A stretch of 64,000 bases of DNA from Fimbriimonadaceae bacterium (GTDB lineage: Bacteria; Armatimonadota; Fimbriimonadia; Fimbriimonadales; Fimbriimonadaceae). A program made the translations under genes and the position numbers. Under the pieces are notes generated by a model, which did no database searches, was not told the origin of the DNA, and worked only from the letters and a program-made list of their open reading frames with translations. The stretch covers positions 1 to 64,000 of the forward strand of contig JADLBH010000015.1 in NCBI GenBank assembly GCA_020847855.1, written 5' to 3'. Positions 11,715 to 57,791 of the stretch are shown here, one piece after another; positions within the stretch are counted from its first letter, which is position 1; every line of letters starts with the position of its first letter.

Positions 11715-13326
11715 ATGAGGATGCTCAGCATCATCCTCGCGGCTCGCGGCTCGCGGCTCGGGGCTCGCGGTCGTAGTGGCGGTTCTCGCAACGTCGTCCG
11801 TGCCTAGCGAGGCAGGGTACTACTCGGTGTCCTTCACCAGCGGGAACGTCCACGTCACCGACGCCGACCCGCCTTGCGCGGAGGACTTTCCGTACCAGTC
11901 CTCCGGCAGCACCCGCAGCGGGGTGGGGATCACGGGAGTGTGCGGCACGCCGCCCGGACTGCCCGGGGCGGGGACGGTGGACTGCACGGGGACCTTGACC
12001 GCGACTTTCACGTTCGTGCCGGAGTGGGCGAACGAAGAACCGCCGCCCTATGCGGTGGTCTATGAGCTGAGCGAAGCCTCATGTGTCGGCGACTCGGGCG
12101 ATTGTGCGAACGGCCTCGGGCACCCGGCGGTTCCTCCCATCGGGTTTGCGAAGACGAGCATGGGCGAGCGGTGGACTCTCCGCGCCAACCCGGGCTCGAG
12201 CTTCTCGATCACGGTCACGCCATCGGCCTCGTCGGTGTGGGCGACCGGGGTGTGCGGCGAGTCCGAGGGCGAGGCCTCGGTCTCGTACACGGCGGAGTGC
12301 TATCCCGTGTACGTGAAGCTGGAAGGGACGCTAAAGGTTTACGCAGGCTCCGTCCCCGGGCAGACCTCGTATGCGAAGCACGAGTGCATGATCGGGCAGC
12401 AGGTGATGGCGACGCTGGTGTGCCCGGGCTGGCCGGACAACACGAGGAGCTGGGCGGTGGAAGGGGGGAACCCCTTCGCCGATTACCAGGTGGCCCCTCC
12501 CGACGGGGACTCGGCGAGCCTGCTGCTCTACTCGCAGGGGCAGACGGGGCAGTACACGACTGCGATCTTCCGGGAGTCGGGGGCGGCGAAGTTTCAGTGC
12601 ACGGCCTTCCTGGGAGGCCCGATCCAGCAACAGGTGACGGTGAAGGGGGACATGGTCACGGTCACTCCAGAGGATGCCGTCCTGGAATTCGAGCTGGGCG
12701 ACGTGAAGCTTGGTTATCCAATGGGTGCCCTATGGTTTGGGCTACTGGACGCAGACCCATTGTTTGGCGAGTACCAAGACGAGCCCGCATTCGCAGGTAT
12801 ACGGTATCGGGGAAGGTTCGTGACTCCCGTGAGGCACCGGCTGGGGCCATACGTCGGTGGGTGGCATTTTGTCCAACTCGTCTCGCCAGGTCGGTTTCGA
12901 CTCAATTGGGGCAATTGGCAGAACCTTCTGAACAACGGCATCCAGGGTTTGGACTTGAGATACCCTACCTTTCCAGAACCGCCAGGCTTCCCTCCGCCTA
13001 GGTATCCAGCTACGACGATCCGAGCCGTCGGCGGCGACGGGCCTGGCCAACCGCTCTTGAGCATCCAACCTAGCAGATATCGGACGGACGGCGAAACGAT
13101 GAAGGTGTACGCAATGTACGAGCCTCCGGCCCGAGACGGTCTTGCCGTTCGGTGGGTGCCTTTGCAGGTGTTCTCCTGGGGGTGGGGAGGCGAGGTTTGG
13201 TGGGACGTCACCCACTGGGCGGGGCCATCGCCCAAAAACGCATGGGCGACTTTTAGCCAGGCTCACCCGCCTCATCCTCAGTGGAGCCTAAGACACCACG
13301 CTGGGAACCTCGTTTGGATCCCGTGA
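11715..13326 (+). CDS. large secreted protein, signal peptide out of frame through a heptamer repeat (candidate phase-variable)
   Basis: A 516-codon ORF is open from GTG 11776 to TGA 13326, but that start has no ribosome site and truncates the signal peptide. ATG 11715 sits 6 nt after a TATAGT -10 box and begins MRMLSIILA, then enters five CTCGCGG repeats (11736-11770) and runs out of frame to a stop at 11805-11807. With 1, 4 or 7 repeats the ATG joins the long ORF; with one repeat the N-terminus reads MRMLSIILAVVVAVLATSSV, an ideal signal peptide. The mature part is beta-rich with many cysteines in its first third; no family was recognised. The lipoprotein gene at 13348 follows after 21 nt. 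Sequencing or assembly error is the main alternative. Confidence 0.65.
11736..11770 (+). repeat. five tandem CTCGCGG heptamers in a signal-peptide region
   Basis: Units run at 11736, 11743, 11750, 11757 and 11764; units 1-3 and 5 are identical, while unit 4 reads CTCGGGG. A 7-bp unit changes reading frame with each gain or loss. The tract lies 21 bp inside the natural ATG of the secreted protein gene, the typical position of slipped-strand contingency repeats. Confidence 0.9.
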
Positions 13327-48243: not shown

Positions 48244-49475
48244 GGTTCTGCCACCAATACTGTTTCTGTGGTCTGATCCGTCTCCCAACCCCATTGGACT
48301 GGGGCGTCTGGCAGGGGGTAAGGGAGGATTCTCAAGATTCGGGGACCGGTCTCTCCCATTTGGACGTACGCGAGGATCGCAACGCTCCTGGAACCGTACG
48401 AGCCTTGACACCGGATCAGGAACGTGTCGCTCCCCGTCGTGAGCCGACCCACGAACTGTCCTAGGTTCGCAATCGTGATCCCTGGGACGGCCACGAGGTC
48501 AGACAGCGAGGCGAACGTCCCTTGGCGGCTCAGGATCGCTTCCGACATGTCGGTCTCGATGCCGGGCAGTGTGGAGAGACTCTCGGGAAGCGCCGTGTTG
48601 ACGTTGATCCGCCCGAGACCACGGTCGGTCTGATCCAAAGTGCAGGCGTCGAGCACTTGGCCCACGTTCTGCTGGTTGATCCCCTGGGTTTGCAGGAGCT
48701 GCGTCCACGATGTGAAGGTTCCCACCGTGTTTCGTTGTTGGACGATCGCGGTCGCAAGTTGGTTGGTCAAGCCTGCCTGCACCAACTGCTGGGTGGTCGC
48801 GACGTTGACGTTGGATTTCGGCGTCCCCGTCGGCGTCGTGTTCGGCGATCCGGGATTCACGGTAAAGACCTCATAGAGCGGCAGGAGCTCCTCGTCCTGA
48901 GTGGAGATCGAGAGGCCGCTCGTCTGGGTTTGGGGTTCGAAGAGGGTCGCCGGGAGCCATCCTTTCACGAGCAAGAGCTCGTCCACGGACTGGAAGCCCT
49001 GCAATCGCGCATTGTAGGGAGTGTCCAGGGCGTTGTAGAACTCGTCCTTCGCACCTTCGATCCTCGGTTGGAGGTCGGGCTCGCGCCAATCGAGGAGGCT
49101 CTCCACCTGTTCTGTGGTCAAGGGAAGTTGCTCGAGTTGCTCCTCGGGCACGGTGTTGAGGTCGAGCCGAGCCGAAGCGTCGGTGACTTCGACCCGGAAG
49201 CCCCCCCCGCCCACGCGAACGAACTGGTTGCCGCGATCCCCGATGGAGGCCCAAGCGTCGTCCAAGGTGACGGTCGCCGTGTTCACGTCGGTGAGTTGCG
49301 CAAGCGCATACTCGATTCCGGACCGTGCCATTCTTCTCGCCCGTTCCCCGTCGAGCTCGTGGAGCTGGGCGCGAGCGGCCGCGCTGGCATCCGCGGCGGC
49401 CGTCGCCAAGACGACGGTGAGCACCACAAGACCGGCGAGCGCGAGCATGAACGCGCTGCCTCGCTGCCTTCTCAT
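48240..49475 (-). CDS. gspK: minor pseudopilin GspK
   Basis: The 411-residue protein starts RRQRGSAFMLALAGLVVLTV, a short class III-like leader with Gly-Ser before the hydrophobic helix. As usual for GspK, the usual Glu at +5 is absent. The body has helix-hairpin-helix-like units, such as LDLNTVPEEQLEQLPLTTEQ, VNVATTQQLVQAGLTNQL and INVNTALPESLSTLPGIETD, that match the GspK family domain. GspK caps the pseudopilus with GspI and GspJ. It overlaps gspJ and gspL by 4 bp each. Confidence 0.85.
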   Translation of the reverse strand: MRRQRGSAFMLALAGLVVLTVVLATAAADASAAARAQLHELDGERARRMARSGIEYALAQLTDVNTATVTLDDAWASIGDRGNQFVRVGGGGFRVEVTDASARLDLNTVPEEQLEQLPLTTEQVESLLDWREPDLQPRIEGAKDEFYNALDTPYNARLQGFQSVDELLLVKGWLPATLFEPQTQTSGLSISTQDEELLPLYEVFTVNPGSPNTTPTGTPKSNVNVATTQQLVQAGLTNQLATAIVQQRNTVGTFTSWTQLLQTQGINQQNVGQVLDACTLDQTDRGLGRINVNTALPESLSTLPGIETDMSEAILSRQGTFASLSDLVAVPGITIANLGQFVGRLTTGSDTFLIRCQGSYGSRSVAILAYVQMGETGPRILRILPYPLPDAPVQWGWETDQTTETVLVAEP

Positions 49476-50170
49476 GCCCCCCCCTCCTGAAGTACTGGGT
49501 TCTCGGGGGTCACGTCGCTGTTTTGGAGAGGGCAGGTGACCACGCGGTCAAAGTCCTCCTCGCCCCAGCGATAGGTGAGCCGAACCGCGGCGGGGAGCCT
49601 TCGGGACTGTGCGAGGGTGTCCCACTGCGTCTGCCAGACAGTGCCGTCCCAGAACTCCCAGGAGACCGGGGCGACCTCTGCCGCGAACGTGCTCTGCCTC
49701 CCTCCCTGGGTCGGGTCACCGTCCGACGGCTTCTGCACCCGCAGAAGCAGGCCGCCCTCCGTCCCTTCGCCAATGACGGCGGTGGAGAAGGCGATCTCGC
49801 TCGGCCCCCCTTGCGGACCTAGCTTCGCGATGCGGTCAGGGAGTTCGTCCTGGGAGGCGACGGCTGCGCCAGGGATCGGGTCGCCTAGGGTTGTGAAGGT
49901 CACGGTGTCCACAGTGGCGAGGTCGCCTCCGCTCGCGCTGGCTACAAAGTAGGACTGCTGGTCCGACGCGTCCGCCGTGAGGTATGCGGTCCGGAACCGG
50001 CCTTGTAGGTCGTTCTCGAAACGATGAATGAGTTGGAAACGGGAGACCGCGCCGAGGGTCCGCTCTTGGAACCGGACTCCAGCGTTGTGGGCGATCGTGA
50101 GGGAGAACACCAAGATTACGGTGATCGCGAGCGAGACCAAGAGTTCGACAAGGGTAAGGCCGCTCCTCAT
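49472..50170 (-). CDS. gspJ: minor pseudopilin GspJ
   Basis: The 232-residue protein has the prepilin peptidase site RSGLTLVELLVSLAITVI (Gly before Leu, Glu at +5) and a beta-rich globular domain with a late RLPAAVRLTYRWGEEDFDR. Position and size identify GspJ, part of the pseudopilus tip complex. It overlaps gspI and gspK by 4 bp. Disulfide cysteines typical of some GspJ proteins are not clear. Confidence 0.75.
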   Translation of the reverse strand: MRSGLTLVELLVSLAITVILVFSLTIAHNAGVRFQERTLGAVSRFQLIHRFENDLQGRFRTAYLTADASDQQSYFVASASGGDLATVDTVTFTTLGDPIPGAAVASQDELPDRIAKLGPQGGPSEIAFSTAVIGEGTEGGLLLRVQKPSDGDPTQGGRQSTFAAEVAPVSWEFWDGTVWQTQWDTLAQSRRLPAAVRLTYRWGEEDFDRVVTCPLQNSDVTPENPVLQEGGA

Positions 50171-50556
50171 GGGACGTTGACGGCCTCCTGCGGCGGCCGG
50201 GCAAGGCCCGCGGCCCGTCCCTCGAGCCGACTGTCGCCCTCGTTAGGGCGGACGATCACCTCGAAGGACAGCACCCCATCGAGCGCCGTGGGCTCGAGGG
50301 ACGCCGTCCAACCGAACCGGGAGTAGGATGGTTCCTCGAAGGTCCCGCTGGTCGCGATCTGCCACTCCCCGGTTGCGATCAGTTCGTCGTATTTGGCCTG
50401 TGCGAGCTCGGTGACCACGGCTCGGTCCTCCATCCGAGAATATGCCCGCGTCACAGACGCCAATCCGCTCACGGTCGCGGCGATCCCCACACCGAGGAGC
50501 GTGGCGGCGACCAAAGCTTCGATGACGGTGAAGCCCCTATGTGCCGCGTTGCTCAA
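50167..50556 (-). CDS. gspI: minor pseudopilin GspI
   Basis: The 129-residue protein starts SNAAHRGFTVIEALVAATLL, a prepilin site with Gly-Phe and Glu at +5, then a small globular domain. GspI starts tip assembly. It overlaps gspH by 20 bp and gspJ by 4 bp. Identification rests on size, site and order. Confidence 0.72.
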   Translation of the reverse strand: MSNAAHRGFTVIEALVAATLLGVGIAATVSGLASVTRAYSRMEDRAVVTELAQAKYDELIATGEWQIATSGTFEEPSYSRFGWTASLEPTALDGVLSFEVIVRPNEGDSRLEGRAAGLARPPQEAVNVP

Positions 50557-51070
50557 GCGAGCCAGCCTCCCAGGATGTCATCGGGTTTTCCGCGAGCGCG
50601 CCTTGCGTGACCTCCGCATGGCCGTCGGCAGGGAAGACACGGACCGTGTAGGTGCCGCCCGGCTCTTCGATCTCCCAAGCCCCGGAAGAGGCGGAGCCGT
50701 CGGCATAGAACTCGATCCTCCAATCGGCCTCCTCTGAAGGCTGCCCGTCCGCCTCGAAGGCGGTCACGGACTCGTCCTGGCCCAACGGGACGGATCGTAG
50801 CTGGGTTGCCTCGTTCTCCTCACCTGCTTGCAGGACGAACGCGGAACTCTCGCCGTCGAACCGGAGGGCAACGGTCTCCCCTCGGTCAATCGCAAGGGCC
50901 CTCGCTTCCGAACCGAGGCGAACGATGTTGGCACGGGCGGCACGGGCGTTCGTCCCTCGCTGCATCGCAAGGATGCGGGGGGTGAGCACGCTGACGATGA
51001 GCACGAGCACCACGATCACCGTGCTCACCTCGATCAGCGTGAAGCCCGAACGCCTACTCGCCCGACTCAA
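50537..51070 (-). CDS. gspH: pseudopilin GspH with probable TTG start
   Basis: The reading from TTG 51070 gives SRASRRSGFTLIEVSTVIVV, with the GFTLIE prepilin site close to the N-terminus and 177 residues in total. No ATG or GTG lies between that TTG and the cleavage site. The ATG choices further upstream (51370 and 51130) lie deep inside gspG in another frame and would make a leader far too long. A GGAGAGG site lies about 12 nt upstream of the TTG. The beta-rich body (ALAIDRGETVALRFDGESSA) is GspH-like. It overlaps gspG by 17 bp and gspI by 20 bp. Confidence 0.75.
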   Translation of the reverse strand: MSRASRRSGFTLIEVSTVIVVLVLIVSVLTPRILAMQRGTNARAARANIVRLGSEARALAIDRGETVALRFDGESSAFVLQAGEENEATQLRSVPLGQDESVTAFEADGQPSEEADWRIEFYADGSASSGAWEIEEPGGTYTVRVFPADGHAEVTQGALAENPMTSWEAGSLEQRGT

Positions 51071-51491
51071 CGATGTCTTCGGCCTCTCCGGTACCTCCGT
51101 CCGCTCCGTCCGAGCCCAAGGAGAGGAGGACATAAGAGTCGTCCCCGTCCACACCAGGGAACTCGTAGACGTAGTCGTAACCCCACGGATCGGCAGGGAT
51201 GGGCTTGGTGAGATAAGGCCCCCGCCAACCAGAAGTGTCGCCTGGCGAGGTTCGGAGCGCCTCGAGCCCTTCTTCTTGGGTCGGGTAACGACCCACGTCG
51301 AGGCGGAACTGCTCGATCGAGCGTCCGAGAGCGGCGAGGTCGGAGCGAGCGGCAGCGCGTTTTGCATCACTGGATCGGTTCACGACCCGCGGGACGATCA
51401 AGGCCGCGAGAACAGCGAGGATCAGAATGACGACAAGGAGCTCGATCAAAGTAAAGCCCTTGCGCCCTTGGGGTTGGTGGTGTCTTCTCAT
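51054..51491 (-). CDS. gspG: major pseudopilin GspG
   Basis: The 145-residue protein has the prepilin site QGRKGFTLIELLVVILILAV and the GspG core IEQFRLDVGRYPTQEEGLEA, followed by GWRGPYLTKPIPADPWGYDY. These include the residues that build the calcium-binding loop in known GspG proteins. It polymerises into the pseudopilus that pushes cargo through the secretin. It lies 2 nt after gspF and overlaps gspH by 17 bp. Confidence 0.92.
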   Translation of the reverse strand: MRRHHQPQGRKGFTLIELLVVILILAVLAALIVPRVVNRSSDAKRAAARSDLAALGRSIEQFRLDVGRYPTQEEGLEALRTSPGDTSGWRGPYLTKPIPADPWGYDYVYEFPGVDGDDSYVLLSLGSDGADGGTGEAEDIVESGE

Positions 51492-51493
51492 AA

Positions 51494-52714
51494 CTATTTC
51501 ACTAGCTCCTGCGCCTGGAAAATGGGGAGCATCACACTCAAGACGACGAAGGCGACAAACCCGCCCATCGCCAGGACGATGACCGGCTCCAGAAGGGAAG
51601 TGAGCCTTCGCAGGCCCTGCTCCACCTCAAAATCAAGACTGTCGGCGACCCGGCCCAGCATCTTGGGAAGGTCGCCCGTCTCCTCACCGATCGCGACCAT
51701 GTGGGTGAGGACCGGGGGAAACTCTCCCGAGTCCCTCATGGCGCTCGCCACGGTCGCCCCGCTTCGGACATCGTCCTGGATCGCGACGTTGCGCTTGGCG
51801 AAGATGGCGTTGCCCGCGGCGAGTCCTGCGAGGTCGAGCGCGCGCAGGATCGGGACGCCGCCCTGCACCAGGGTGCCAAGCACCCTCGCATATCGGGAAA
51901 CCACGGCCTTCGTTACGATTTTGCCGAAGCCGGGAAGCCGTAGCATCGCCGCGTCGCGCGCCTCCTTGCCCGCCGGGGTCGCCATCCAGCCCCGCGCAAG
52001 GACGTATGCCACCACGACGCCGATCCCGAGGTACACGCCGTTGGCGGTCAGGAAGCCGGTCGTGGCAAGCAGCACCTTGGTGGGCAAGGGGAGATCGTCG
52101 CCTAGCCCTTCGAAAACGCTCGACAGCCTGGGAACCACGAACGCCAGCAGGAAGATGACGACGAAGATCGCAGTGGCGGTGAGGACTCCTGGATAGATGA
52201 GAGCACTGACGATCTGACTGCGTCGTGCCACCTCGTTCTCGAGGAGGTCTGCCAGCTTCTCGGCGGCCTCGGGGAACTGTCCGCTCTCCTCGCCCGAGGC
52301 GAGGGTCTGGGTGTACATCTCGGGAAAGAACCGCGGGTGCTGCGAGAGGGCAGTGCTGACCGGGATGCCCTTCTTCACCTCGTCCAAGGCTTCGGACGCT
52401 GCCAGCGCGAGACCCGTGCTCTCGCTCTGCTCCGAGAGGATGGCGAGAACGCGATCCAGCGGCAGGCCCGCGGAGGAGAGGTCCGCCAAGCGGCGCATGA
52501 AAAGGGCGATGTCGGCCTTGCTCGTCCGCCCTCGCCGCACGGGTGCGGCTTGCTCCTTCCTCGCCGCCGCGCCCTCGGCCTTGGCCTCGATCTCGATGAC
52601 GAAGCGCCCTTCCGCTGCGACCCTGGAGATCGCCGCCTTCTGGTCCGGTGCCTCGACGATGCCGGACTTCCGCTTCCCGGCGGCATCCACAGCGACATAG
52701 GCAAAGTTGGCCAT
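51494..52714 (-). CDS. gspF: type II secretion inner-membrane platform protein GspF
   Basis: The 406-residue protein has two T2SSF domains. The first, near 70-195, contains LFMRRLADLSSAGLPLDRVL, with hydrophobic segments near 170-195 and 220-240. The second, near 270-395, contains FGKIVTKAVVSRYARVLGTL and ends in a membrane helix. It anchors the ATPase GspE to the membrane. It is 3 nt downstream of gspE. The N-terminal FAYVAVDAAGKRKSGIVEA is also family-like. Confidence 0.92.
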   Translation of the reverse strand: MANFAYVAVDAAGKRKSGIVEAPDQKAAISRVAAEGRFVIEIEAKAEGAAARKEQAAPVRRGRTSKADIALFMRRLADLSSAGLPLDRVLAILSEQSESTGLALAASEALDEVKKGIPVSTALSQHPRFFPEMYTQTLASGEESGQFPEAAEKLADLLENEVARRSQIVSALIYPGVLTATAIFVVIFLLAFVVPRLSSVFEGLGDDLPLPTKVLLATTGFLTANGVYLGIGVVVAYVLARGWMATPAGKEARDAAMLRLPGFGKIVTKAVVSRYARVLGTLVQGGVPILRALDLAGLAAGNAIFAKRNVAIQDDVRSGATVASAMRDSGEFPPVLTHMVAIGEETGDLPKMLGRVADSLDFEVEQGLRRLTSLLEPVIVLAMGGFVAFVVLSVMLPIFQAQELVK

Positions 52715-52717
52715 GGC

Positions 52718-54274
52718 TTAGAGATCGTCCCTCTGACAGACGCGGAGGACTTCTCGCGGGGTGGTCAGGCCCTCGAGGACGGCGATGCGGCCGTCCCCCA
52801 GGAGGGTGCGCATGGAGAGGTGCTTCATGGCATGGTCGCGCATGAGGCTTGCCGAGACCCTGTCCACGGTCATTCTTCGGATCTCCTCGTCCACGCCCAT
52901 GAGCTCATAGACCCCGCGTCGGCCCTTATAGCCAGTGCGGCCGCACCGTTCGCACCCTTTGCCTTGCATGAAGTTGCCCCCTCGCGCGGCCTCGGCGGAG
53001 ATCCCCATGGCCTGGAGCGCCTCGTAGTCCGCCTCGACGGGCTCGCTACAGTTCGGGCAGTTCAGCCGAACCAAGCGCTGAGCGAGGACGCCGACGATTG
53101 AGCTTGCCGCAAGATAGGGCTCGACGCCCATGTCGAGAAGTCTGGTGATGGCCGAGGGGGCGTCGTTGGTGTGGAGGGTGCTGAAGACCAAGTGGCCGGT
53201 GAGCGCCGCGTGGATCGCGATCTCCGCCGTTTCATGGTCGCGGATCTCGCCCACCATGATCACGTCGGGGTCTTGACGGACGATCGAGCGGAGCCCGCTC
53301 GCGAAGGTCAGTCCTATGTTCGCCCGCACCTGGATCTGCCCGATCCCCGCCACCTGATACTCGACCGGATCCTCGATGGTAAGGATGTTCAAGGAAGGCG
53401 AATAGATCTCCTGGAGCGCGGCGTAGAGCGTTGTGGACTTGCCCGACCCGGTGGGCCCGGTGACGAGGACCATTCCATAGGGCACGTTGATGAGCTTTCG
53501 GAACCGCTCCAGGGCGTCGTCCCGCATGCCGAGCTGGGTGAGACCCAGCATCGCAGTCCCCTTGTCGAGGATGCGCATCACGCACCGCTCGCCCAGCACC
53601 GTCGGGATGATCGAGACGCGGACGTCCACGCTTCGACCGGCCACGGTCACCTTGATGCGTCCGTCCTGCGGCAGCCTGCGCTCCGCGATGTTCATCTCGC
53701 CAAGGATCTTGACCCTCGAGACGATCGCCGCGTGCTTGTGCTTGGGGGGCGACATCACGTCGGTCAAAATCCCGTCGGTACGGAACCGGACCTTCACTTC
53801 ACGCTCGTAGGGTTCGATATGGATGTCGCTGACCCCGTCCCTCACCGCCTGGGCGAACATGAGGTTTACCATCTGGACGACGGCGGCCTCTCCTGCCATC
53901 CGCTCCAGATCGGCAAGGTCGGCCGAGTCGCCCGAGTCGAGGAGATCGTCCTCGGCGGGCATGTCCGCCATCATTCCGGCAAGGAAACGGTCCTCGATCT
54001 TGGCGCGGATCTGTCCCGCGTCCGCGAGCATCGCCCGTACCGGCATGTCGGTGAGCACGCTCAGTTCGTCGAGCGCGGCGAGTTGCTGGATCGAACTGAT
54101 CGCGGCCACAAGTGTGCCGTGGTCCACCATCAAGGGGAAGACCTGCCGCCGGAGCGCAAACTCGCCAGGGACCAGGTCGAGGGCGGACGCCTGGGGCACG
54201 AACTCGGTCAGGTCTATGCGCTCGAGGCCATAGTCCGGGCCGAAGTCCTCCTGTATCGCAATGCTCTCGGCCAT
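52718..54274 (-). CDS. gspE: type II secretion ATPase GspE
   Basis: The 518-residue ATPase has an N-terminal MshEN-like domain (about 1-110), then the catalytic core with Walker A GPTGSGKST (273-281), Asp box LNILTIEDPVEYQ, Walker B DPDVIMVGEIRDHET and His box GHLVFSTLHTNDAPSA. A zinc-binding tetracysteine (CPNC ... CERC) is present, as in GspE/PilB. It powers pseudopilus extension. It heads the operon gspE-F-G-H-I-J-K-L-M-C-D. AAAGGAT before the ATG is a likely ribosome site. A prepilin peptidase (GspO) is not in the window. Confidence 0.93.
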   Translation of the reverse strand: MAESIAIQEDFGPDYGLERIDLTEFVPQASALDLVPGEFALRRQVFPLMVDHGTLVAAISSIQQLAALDELSVLTDMPVRAMLADAGQIRAKIEDRFLAGMMADMPAEDDLLDSGDSADLADLERMAGEAAVVQMVNLMFAQAVRDGVSDIHIEPYEREVKVRFRTDGILTDVMSPPKHKHAAIVSRVKILGEMNIAERRLPQDGRIKVTVAGRSVDVRVSIIPTVLGERCVMRILDKGTAMLGLTQLGMRDDALERFRKLINVPYGMVLVTGPTGSGKSTTLYAALQEIYSPSLNILTIEDPVEYQVAGIGQIQVRANIGLTFASGLRSIVRQDPDVIMVGEIRDHETAEIAIHAALTGHLVFSTLHTNDAPSAITRLLDMGVEPYLAASSIVGVLAQRLVRLNCPNCSEPVEADYEALQAMGISAEAARGGNFMQGKGCERCGRTGYKGRRGVYELMGVDEEIRRMTVDRVSASLMRDHAMKHLSMRTLLGDGRIAVLEGLTTPREVLRVCQRDDL

Positions 54275-54964: not shown

Positions 54965-56026
54965 TTACCCCTTGCGCCTCCTGCGCGCGAGGGCGGCCAG
55001 GCCCAGCGCGAGGGCGGCGAGCAGGCCGGGCTCGGGGACGGGGTTGAAGACGAAGCTCGTGTACTGCCCGTCCCACTTGCCCTCGCCCACGATTTGTCCG
55101 TGGTCGTTGATGTCCCACAGGATCAGGTCGGAGACGTGGGGGCGCTGGCTGGGCAGGAGCAGGTCCTCCATGTAGGCGGCCCCGACCCCGTCCCGGTAGT
55201 AGTAGCCGTAGCCGCGGGTCTCGTCCCTGGTCCGGCCCACGACCTCGAAGCGGTCGTTGATCGCCTCGGGCCCGCCCCCGAACTGGGGGAGCGCAGGGTG
55301 GGGGAGCTCCCTCATCTCCCCGGTGTGGGCGTTGTAGGCCCAGCCGTCGCTGCTGCCGCGGCCGACCACCCAGCCCAGGTCGTTGATGTCGGCCGAGAGC
55401 ATGAAGAGCGTGCCGGGCATCGGTGGGATCTCGAAGACCGACCCGTCCTCGCGCCAGACCAGCGCACCGCTCGGGCGGGTCCACCCGCCGAACGACCCGG
55501 CGGCCCATCCCGAGGCGTTCACCGCGACCGGCGCCACGCCCCCCTGGTCCAGGTAGAGCCTGTCCAGCAGGTGCTGGGTGCCGTCCGGGTCTATGCGGAA
55601 GCCTAGCGAGAACCCGAGCTCGGGGATGTCCTGGATGCCGGTGATGTGCCCGGCGTCGCTGATGTCGGCGGCCTCGGCCCGTGCCTGGAACTCCCCGACC
55701 AGGCGGCTCGTGTCCGTGGCCGGGTCGTAGACGAAGGGATGGCGGCCGACGCGGTCTGCGCTCGCATACCCCGTGACCTGGCCCGAGGCGTTGATGCCGT
55801 AGCCATTGGCGTTCGTCCGGCCCGGCGGCAAGGGGAGGTCCCGCCGCCCCCGCACCGGGTCCCAGGTGATCGCGCGGTCGAAGCTCGACCCCGCGGCCAC
55901 CCCCCCGTCCCCGATGGCATGGTAGCCCACGCCCGGGGTCTGGGTCAGGATGGTCGCCTCGTAGACCGGGAATCCCTGCCCCGCCCCCAGGGAGGGGAGC
56001 AGGACTAGGGCGAGCACGAGCCTCAC
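54965..56026 (-). CDS. PEP-CTERM protein with HAF-type repeats
   Basis: The 353-residue exported protein starts at GTG 56026, overlapping the previous stop (GTGA), with a short signal (RLVLALVLLPSLGAGQ). The body repeats a pattern like GINASGQVTGYASAD, VNASGWAAGSFGG, INDLGWVVGRGSSD and DINDHGQIVGEGKWD, the signature of HAF extracellular repeats, which make a propeller-like fold. The C-terminus VPEPGLLAALALGLAALARR followed by a basic tail is a PEP-CTERM sorting signal. It is coupled to the gene at 56023-57764, which lacks this tail. Confidence 0.8.
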   Translation of the reverse strand: MRLVLALVLLPSLGAGQGFPVYEATILTQTPGVGYHAIGDGGVAAGSSFDRAITWDPVRGRRDLPLPPGRTNANGYGINASGQVTGYASADRVGRHPFVYDPATDTSRLVGEFQARAEAADISDAGHITGIQDIPELGFSLGFRIDPDGTQHLLDRLYLDQGGVAPVAVNASGWAAGSFGGWTRPSGALVWREDGSVFEIPPMPGTLFMLSADINDLGWVVGRGSSDGWAYNAHTGEMRELPHPALPQFGGGPEAINDRFEVVGRTRDETRGYGYYYRDGVGAAYMEDLLLPSQRPHVSDLILWDINDHGQIVGEGKWDGQYTSFVFNPVPEPGLLAALALGLAALARRRRKG

Positions 56027-57764
56027 AGCGACGGCCTCACGAGGATGCGGCACTGCTCGAAGGAGTTCGTCCAGAGCGGCTGCGACCCACCGGAGAGGAA
56101 CCGCCGCACCTCGACCCGCGCCCGCACCCGTCCGTCCGAGTTCTGGACGAAGCGGCCGAAGTTCGTCTGCCCGGTGAGACTCTTGAGCGGTGTGCTCATA
56201 TACCTTTGGAGCAGGTGCCCGTCGTTAGACGTGGTCCCTGGCTCGAGCTCGAACCAGACTTGGGCGTCCCAGTCCCAGAAGAGGGTCTTCATCCGGAACA
56301 GCCCGGAAGAGTCTGCTCGGGCCGTGGTCCTGAGCGCGATGTCCACCGGCACCGACACGGGGCAGGTGCCTTCGACCTCAAGGATGATCCCGGCCGCGCC
56401 GGAGTTCGGCTGGGGGCCCTTCTCGATCGTGGCGAACCTTCCTTCCACCTTGGCCAGGTCGTTCGTGGACCCGCCGAGCACGGTCCCGCGCACGAGGGTT
56501 TGCGTCGGGCTCGCGGCCAGCTCCCAGCCCGCGGTGTCGGCTGCCGTCGTCCGGAAGAGGGCCGGGGCCGTGGAAGCCTTCGGCGAGAAGCCCACCCCGC
56601 CTGCGACGAACGCCGACTCCAGCCCGGTGGCGTTCGCGGCTGTGAAGTCGTCGTCCCCTGGCTGGGGGACGTACGGGTGCAGGAAGGCCCAGAGGTCGCA
56701 CTCGACCCCGTCGTTCGGCAGGGTGGGGTCGGGGGAGCCCACGTAGATGTAGGGGAGCGTTCCCCTCCCCACGAAGGAGACGACCGGGCTCGACGGTGTG
56801 TAGGCCCGGTTCGAGGCCTGGAGGGGCTCGAAGACGTAGGGGCTGCCGAACTTCACCCGGTTGGAGCCGAGCGACCAGACAAAGGGTCGGCCCGGATCGA
56901 AGCCCGAGGCCTCGACCCAACCGACCGCGTAGGGCCTTGCCGGATCGCCCGGCACGGTGTCATAGAGGCTGACCACCCTGGCGGAGCGGTCTGCGACCGG
57001 GGCCCAGTCCGCGGACGAGGAGACGAGCACCGGGTCGTAGTGCAGGCCGTTCCAAGTCCAGACGCAAGCCGTGTTCCCGGAGGTGCCGCCGAAGACCTGC
57101 CCGCCGATGAGGCCGATCACGGGGCCGTCGTCGTTGATCGCGTTCGCCTCGGAAGCGATGTAGCCCGCAGGGAGGTCGTCATCATCGAACACATACACGT
57201 CCGCAGCTGCGTTCGACGAGTTCCACACGATGCCTTGGTGGACACCGTCAAAAACTCCCATGCCGACGCAGTTCTCGGGCAACCGGCCGTCCACGTCGCG
57301 GAACTGGCCGGTGCTCGCCCCGGAAGGCTTCACTATCCTATAGGCGAGCGCGGCGTCCCACCGGGCGGGAAGCGGTTCCGGCACGATCGGGTCGTCGTCC
57401 GAGAACCCGGCCGTGACGCCGTCACGGTTCGCGGCCAAGGCGGCGGCCTCCGTCCAATCGGGCGGGTGCAGGTTCAGCCCGATCCCGTTGTTCGGTTCCA
57501 GGTTCCAGAACGCTCCCTTGTACTTGACCGGCGGGTCGCCGATGGGGTCGTAGGCCATCTGCATGGCGAGACGGGCCAGTCCGCCTCCTCCACGGGTCGC
57601 AAGCTTCGCGGCTCCGAGTGGACCGAGGTTGTGCTCAACCGGTGCCGTTATGTTGATCACTATGCCTTGGATCTGTGGCGGGTCATTGGCGAGGGCTACC
57701 CCCCCCCCCCGCAAATTGACGAGAGCGCGAGCCCGAGGGCAGCGCGGCGGATGTTTGTTCTCAT
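56023..57764 (-). CDS. large secreted HAF-like protein, signal peptide out of frame at a G12 tract (candidate phase-variable)
   Basis: ATG 57764 has a perfect GGAGGAAT ribosome site and encodes MRTNIRRAALGLALSSIC, then glycines from a 12-G run (57699-57710), and then reads straight into TAG. The long frame that follows the run (VALAND and about 560 residues) is open to the TGA at 56023. With 10 or 13 Gs the two parts join and the signal peptide ends VALA-ND, a good cleavage site. The mature body is beta-rich with HAF-like pieces (ANAINDDGPVIGLIGGQ, SARVVSLYDTVPGDPARPYA). No PEP-CTERM tail is present. It overlaps the PEP-CTERM gene by 4 bp. The homopolymer makes a sequencing error the main alternative. 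Confidence 0.68.
57699..57710 (-). repeat. 12-bp poly-G (plus-strand C) tract in a signal-peptide region
   Basis: Twelve consecutive C residues on the plus strand, read as G12 in the minus-strand gene, are the longest homopolymer I noticed in the window. They lie 53 bp after the ATG at 57764. A one- or two-base change alters the frame of the secreted protein. Confidence 0.9.
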
Positions 57765-57785
57765 CGTCGGGATTCCTCCATGCCA

Positions 57786-57791
57786 AGTATG
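57786..57791 (-). promoter_or_regulatory. -10 hexamer for the G12 secreted-protein gene
   Basis: CATACT on the minus strand is followed 7 nt later by the expected start of transcription, and a GGAGG ribosome site lies between it and ATG 57764. A -35 is not clear. Confidence 0.4.

Follow-up and report, generated by a model that had tools for sequence, protein, structure and literature searches.

Repeat-driven phase variation has been studied mainly in host-adapted pathogens, where it is explained by immune escape. The poly-G tract of the neisserial pilC genes is reportedly situated in the signal-peptide region (so Jonsson et al. 1991 are said to have found). In Neisseria pilC1/pilC2 this tract ranges in length from 9 to 20 and gives translational phase variation (PMC5320596, PMC5953494), while the opa genes of the same genus carry CTTCT pentamer repeats in the 5' coding part (PMC5320596). 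A survey of homopolymers in prokaryotes by Orsi et al. 2010 described tracts near gene 5' ends that inactivate genes by frameshift, with A/T tracts stressed (PMC2831843). Is there any comparable switch in the Armatimonadota? A full-text search of the open-licence literature found no paper on phase variation in this phylum.

The locus described here lies in a stretch of 64,000 nucleotides, hereafter the window, at positions 1 to 64,000 of contig JADLBH010000015.1 from a Fimbriimonadaceae bacterium (assembly GCA_020847855.1). A preliminary description of the window had proposed that a run of 12 G breaks the signal peptide of a large secreted protein, as at classic contingency loci. The features concerned are as follows.

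57775..57779, minus strand: ribosome-binding site GGAGG, read directly from the sequence, with a 10-nt spacer to the ATG.
57762..57764, minus strand: start codon ATG of the putatively switched gene, read directly from the sequence.
57688..57764, minus strand: signal-peptide coding region MRTNIRRAALGLALSSIC-G(n)-VALA, called by inspection.
57699..57710, minus strand: the G12 tract, the proposed switch; exactly 12 G, preceded by C and followed immediately by TAG in the start frame.
56023..57696, minus strand: body of the secreted protein (P0001) in the other frame; 557 open codons from 57696 to 56026, stop at 56023-56025.

Translation from the ATG at 57764 on the minus strand gives MRTNIRRAALGLALSSICGGGG and then meets TAG, and the tract lies 54-66 nt from this ATG. 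No alternative in-frame start (ATG, GTG, TTG or CTG) occurs between the ATG and the upstream stop. By inspection, the putative signal peptide is probably cleaved before ND. The GC content of the P0001 body at codon positions 1/2/3 is 0.64/0.52/0.87, a clear coding signature. When tract lengths from 9 to 14 were tried in silico, a continuous product was obtained only with 10 or 13 G (579/580 aa); lengths of 9, 11, 12 and 14 led to a stop inside 21-27 codons, with a 22-residue peptide at the assembled length of 12. The preliminary description was thus exact on the start with its GGAGG and signal peptide (the latter again by inspection) and on the shift by 12 G directly into TAG. Its estimate of roughly 560 open codons in the next frame corresponds to the 557 counted, and its statement that 10 or 13 G would fuse start and body holds for these two lengths alone among those tried.

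We propose, with a probability of roughly 0.83, that G12 is a slipped-strand switch for translational phase variation, placed in the signal peptide of a protein that is secreted and probably located at the cell surface. Slipped-strand mispairing would alter the G count and so bring the signal peptide into frame or take it out of frame. With 10 or 13 G, start and signal peptide would join the 557-codon body, and the protein would be made and exported; with 12 G, the TAG would end translation after 22 codons. The locus has the features expected of a contingency locus, namely a repeat at the 5' end, a frame that switches with repeat length and an intact downstream coding sequence. This reading implies that repeat number would change in living populations.

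What is the protein behind the tract? P0001 has no match in Pfam or NCBIfam, and neither collection gives a family match to PilC/PilY1. Likewise, it does not match the HAF repeat model TIGR02913, whereas the neighbouring gene does; a profile search of 85 Fimbriimonadaceae genomes yielded weak matches of the P0001 family to HAF-like proteins. No relatives were found in a protein search of GTDB genome contigs other than those of the window's own genome, nor in the PDB by profile, and an AlphaFold2 model from the single sequence was uninformative (pLDDT 32.5). The neighbour lies immediately downstream.

54965..56026, minus strand: HAF-repeat/PEP-CTERM gene; its GTG start overlaps the stop of the putatively switched gene (GTGA).

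The P0001 product is probably secreted and exposed at the cell surface; surface exposure of these proteins is suggested because they carry signal peptides and P0001 has a PEP-CTERM neighbour. The OFF state may also lower expression of the overlapping PEP-CTERM gene through lost coupling, a polar effect that would follow from the overlap. A type II secretion/type IV pilus-like cluster is found close by, at 49472-54274 on the minus strand, with a GspE-like ATPase, a GspF-like protein and pseudopilins. The window GspE shows 65-71% identity to proteins of Fimbriimonadaceae and of other Armatimonadota metagenome-assembled genomes, and in one genome with a P0001 homologue (G010) a PilB/GspE-like gene lies just upstream of it.

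The N-terminal comparison of homologues that the preliminary description had suggested was carried out with a family profile against the 85 Fimbriimonadaceae genomes. Eight members in five genomes matched it well, and the N-terminus of each was read by hand; G000 denotes the genome of the window. The 5' ends of these members are as follows.

Window gene (G000): G12; out of frame.
57677..57788, minus strand: 112-bp cassette of the window gene, from the ribosome site to ...NDPP, with a 98% identical copy at contig positions 99740-99851 (minus strand) in a paralogue; the paralogue has G12 and is out of frame.
G010 homologue: MKTTLTRSLFALSLFA, G12, AFAQD; out of frame.
G091 homologue: MKHTKTTLRLALAALAVC, G11, EALAQS; out of frame.
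G007 homologue: MTRTKILTLIFVLVT from a TTG start, C9, VTAQS; out of frame.
Second G007 homologue: ATG, (CAGTCGC)9, then LAASLLLILLVSGTALS; out of frame.
G083 homologue: MKRTIKKRTLVASLAVLVASQAVA-QS, C9; out of frame.
Eighth member (G083 L275): no repeat; signal peptide in frame.

A simple sequence repeat is thus found within or next to the signal peptide in seven of the eight members (G12 three times, G11, C9 twice and a 7-bp unit nine times over), and all seven are out of frame. The slot is retained while repeat numbers differ. Homologues in three other genera have the same layout with different repeats, each followed by a long open body. The body of the G010 homologue contains a stop, which speaks against the proposed switch. 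The loci with G tracts align around TTTGC-G(n)-nAGC, so that the tract is probably homologous among them. The C9 and 7-bp repeats seem to have arisen independently at this slot; (CAGTCGC)9 is the sole such array in its genome. The recurrence of the slot in four genera with different repeat types, together with the in-frame state of the repeat-free homologue, argues for the contingency-locus reading of the preliminary description.

The paralogue lies 42 kb from the window gene, and its protein is only 39% identical, in contrast to the near identity of the cassette. AAG replaces ATG in the paralogue cassette, which has no other in-frame ATG, GTG, TTG or CTG, and the one start listed in its body frame is a TTG that immediately precedes the tract. 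Cassette identity stops at GACCCGCC. The window gene has this 8-bp word again at the distal end of some 50 residues that are exclusive to it, which would fit a joining of the cassette through GACCCGCC. No copies of the cassette were found in IMG/VR.

Is the design confined to one family? Near the other end of the window a gene for an unrelated secreted protein shows the same arrangement, which lends further support to the contingency-locus reading.

11715..13326, plus strand: second candidate switch gene; ATG at 11715, the array, then 517 codons open in another frame.
11736..11770, plus strand: (CTCGCGG)5 array, detected by Tandem Repeats Finder, inside the signal peptide.

As assembled, this gene is out of frame. 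Its homologues carry (ACGGCTC)3 in the window's own genome (contig C38, OFF), C10 in two genes of G026 (both OFF), C12 in G104 (OFF) and (TGGCGGT)3.9 in G010 (ON). Two further copies are in frame, one with 2.4 units of CATCGGG and one without a repeat, the latter in G007. General decay and a systematic artefact are both made less likely by the in-frame repeat-bearing allele of G010. Over both families, 12 of the 13 repeat-bearing genes (at least 3 units) are out of frame, against two-thirds expected at random. As many of the 13 genes are related, this excess is no more than a hint that the OFF state is common.

How likely are such repeats by chance? The length of G12 is not remarkable in itself. 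Runs of at least 12 G number 4 on both strands of the 2.53-Mb genome, against 0.4-7 expected depending on Markov order, which is within expectation for a GC-rich genome. It is the position of the tract, not its length, that is far beyond chance. Runs of at least 9 G/C number 37 in G000, 15 in G007, 19 in G010, 7 in G083 and 22 in G091, which gives any one gene a probability of 2e-4 to 1.5e-3 of having such a tract within its first 105 bp. All five genomes examined encode both MutS and MutL, so a mismatch-repair defect that boosts slippage was rejected as the cause of the repeats.

Tandem arrays of 3.3 or more copies whose period is not divisible by three were then searched for in 1.33 Mb of G000, about half of the assembly. 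Nine were found, and eight of them fall within the signal peptide of an ORF longer than 150 codons or immediately ahead of it. By a mechanical criterion the comparison is 8/9 against 7.35% of random positions (P = 7e-9), and with arrays of shared unit counted once it is 6/7 (P about 1e-6 by our own arithmetic); the criterion was set after the arrays had been seen, and these P values are descriptive. The units of the eight are CTCGCGG, AGCCTCA (twice), CGGCGCTT, TCGGCGCA (twice), ATGCGCTA and TCAGG, and none of the eight proteins has a Pfam match. This clustering agrees with the contingency-locus reading as well. The scope of the genome-wide result is G000 only. In a 0.41-Mb sample of G007 and G010, too small for the test, the arrays at signal peptides were the heptamer already described and one of 10 bp; three poor 11-bp arrays (75-85% matches) lay elsewhere. 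An order-wide crude scan for G/C tracts of at least 11 placed 10/155 at signal peptides against 2.6-3.3% (P 0.007-0.03), a weak enrichment obtained with a filter that misses several real cases; the comparisons based on homologues and on arrays were preferred to it.

Individual loci can also be listed. The signal-peptide repeats of G000 include AGCCTCA x5.4 and x8.4, CGGCGCTT x3.9, TCGGCGCA x5 at two sites, ATGCGCTA x7.8, G13 and TCAGG x11.8; their positions are C37:182538, 185425, 225082, 227536 and 230229, C10:112557 and 104695, and C2:29492. Several of these genes are out of frame from the nearest ATG, and the two TCGGCGCA genes have TTG/GTG starts in frame. In another family of the order (genomes G058 and G041), four loci for large proteins (L162, L164, L165 and L168) carry G11-G12 just after the signal peptide or near the N-terminus, with a stop in the start frame immediately after the tract; L164 and L168 match DUF6531, and L168 also matches RHS repeats. 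Loci L160 and L161 of G058 have near-identical 5' ends (NQSFRWMKA) with G12, G11 and G12 tracts in differing frame states, and their bodies differ (Big_1/invasin-like, PKD). Other repeats precede the start of the gene. In G010, about 13 copies of a 10-bp unit (L355:2119-2259, contig C1 near 962119) immediately precede the start of a gene with a signal peptide, MKLNTITLIAAAATLFAAVPSVSYA, and may form a leader or promoter switch. L101 in G032 and L110 in G026 have G11 and G12 tracts, which lie a few bases ahead of the start of a signal peptide and may act as transcriptional or leader switches.

Could the frameshift be an artefact instead? The true tract might be 10 or 13 G in every cell, given that 12-nt homopolymers are hard to call and that the genome is a draft of 41 contigs, and a skeptic may read 12 out-of-frame genes among 13 as consensus error or as decay. 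We regard an assembly error as unlikely. In other assemblies the slot is likewise out of frame but is occupied by C9 or by a 7-bp array, where homopolymer miscalls are less likely. Exact copy number, for its part, has no bearing on the finding that non-3n arrays cluster at signal peptides. A wrong count would alter the state of the G12 locus, but not the presence of the slot or the pattern. Another explanation is recoding at the RNA level, in which slippage of RNA polymerase on the G run, or a ribosomal frameshift there, would give a fixed fraction of full-length product from unchanged DNA. For the G run this is a fair rival, and a conserved recoding site would also leave nearly all repeat-bearing members out of frame. 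However, homologues use 7-bp units besides G/C runs, and units of 8 bp and 5 bp are found at further signal peptides; we know of no RNA-level slippage on 5-, 7- or 8-bp units. With the in-frame repeat-bearing allele of G010 also against it, recoding appears quite improbable.

Decay of the gene after a chance inactivating frameshift would account for its out-of-frame state and for the lost ATG of the paralogue. It would not be expected to leave 557 open codons with strong codon-position bias, nor the same arrangement with different repeats and long open bodies in three other genera, and we consider a pseudogene very improbable. It may also be asked whether translation simply begins elsewhere, with the upstream ATG and signal peptide unused. 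The body frame is open upstream to 58032 and holds possible starts there, so that a start without signal peptide is possible on paper, though unlikely. Such a start would leave unexplained a precise unit of GGAGG, ATG and signal peptide that recurs in homologues; the body frame itself encodes no signal peptide, and in the paralogue its one listed start is the TTG mentioned above. This last explanation is hardly credible.

Slippage at the signal peptide thus stands as the preferred reading, and G12 would be one of a lineage set in which G/C runs or 5-, 7- and 8-bp units occupy the same 5' slot. Since other short repeats occur at the same spot in relatives and in unrelated genes, the lineage probably switches secreted proteins by slippage. 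We further suggest, with moderate confidence, a Fimbriimonadaceae phasome aimed at export. Within the signal peptide or immediately ahead of it, many unrelated orphan secreted proteins would share a standard slot, where different repeats arise and replace one another, and the whole cassette could be copied between paralogues. If true, this phasome would be the first described in Armatimonadota, and its target would be the export signal, in a lineage that is not known to be pathogenic. Signal-peptide switches in uncultured Armatimonadota would then point to pressures other than immune escape, such as, speculatively, phage adsorption or neighbour recognition. Unnamed secreted families would gain a testable role as variable surface components. 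A practical consequence is that gene callers will split or miss such genes in metagenome-assembled genomes.

How does the locus compare with the known systems? As in Neisseria pilC, a G run of comparable length lies early in the coding sequence of a gene for an exported protein, where length shifts the frame and leads to an early stop. It differs in that P0001 has no Pfam or NCBIfam match and its host is an uncultured member of the Armatimonadota, and in that repeat variation is known in Neisseria while here it is proposed. Like opa, the lineage has multi-base non-3n repeats close to the 5' end of the coding sequence in several genes for exported proteins within one genome. The opa genes, however, are one family with one unit, whereas here unrelated proteins carry different units. 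Unlike the A/T tracts stressed in the survey of Orsi et al. 2010 (PMC2831843), the repeats found here are G/C runs and longer units at signal peptides.
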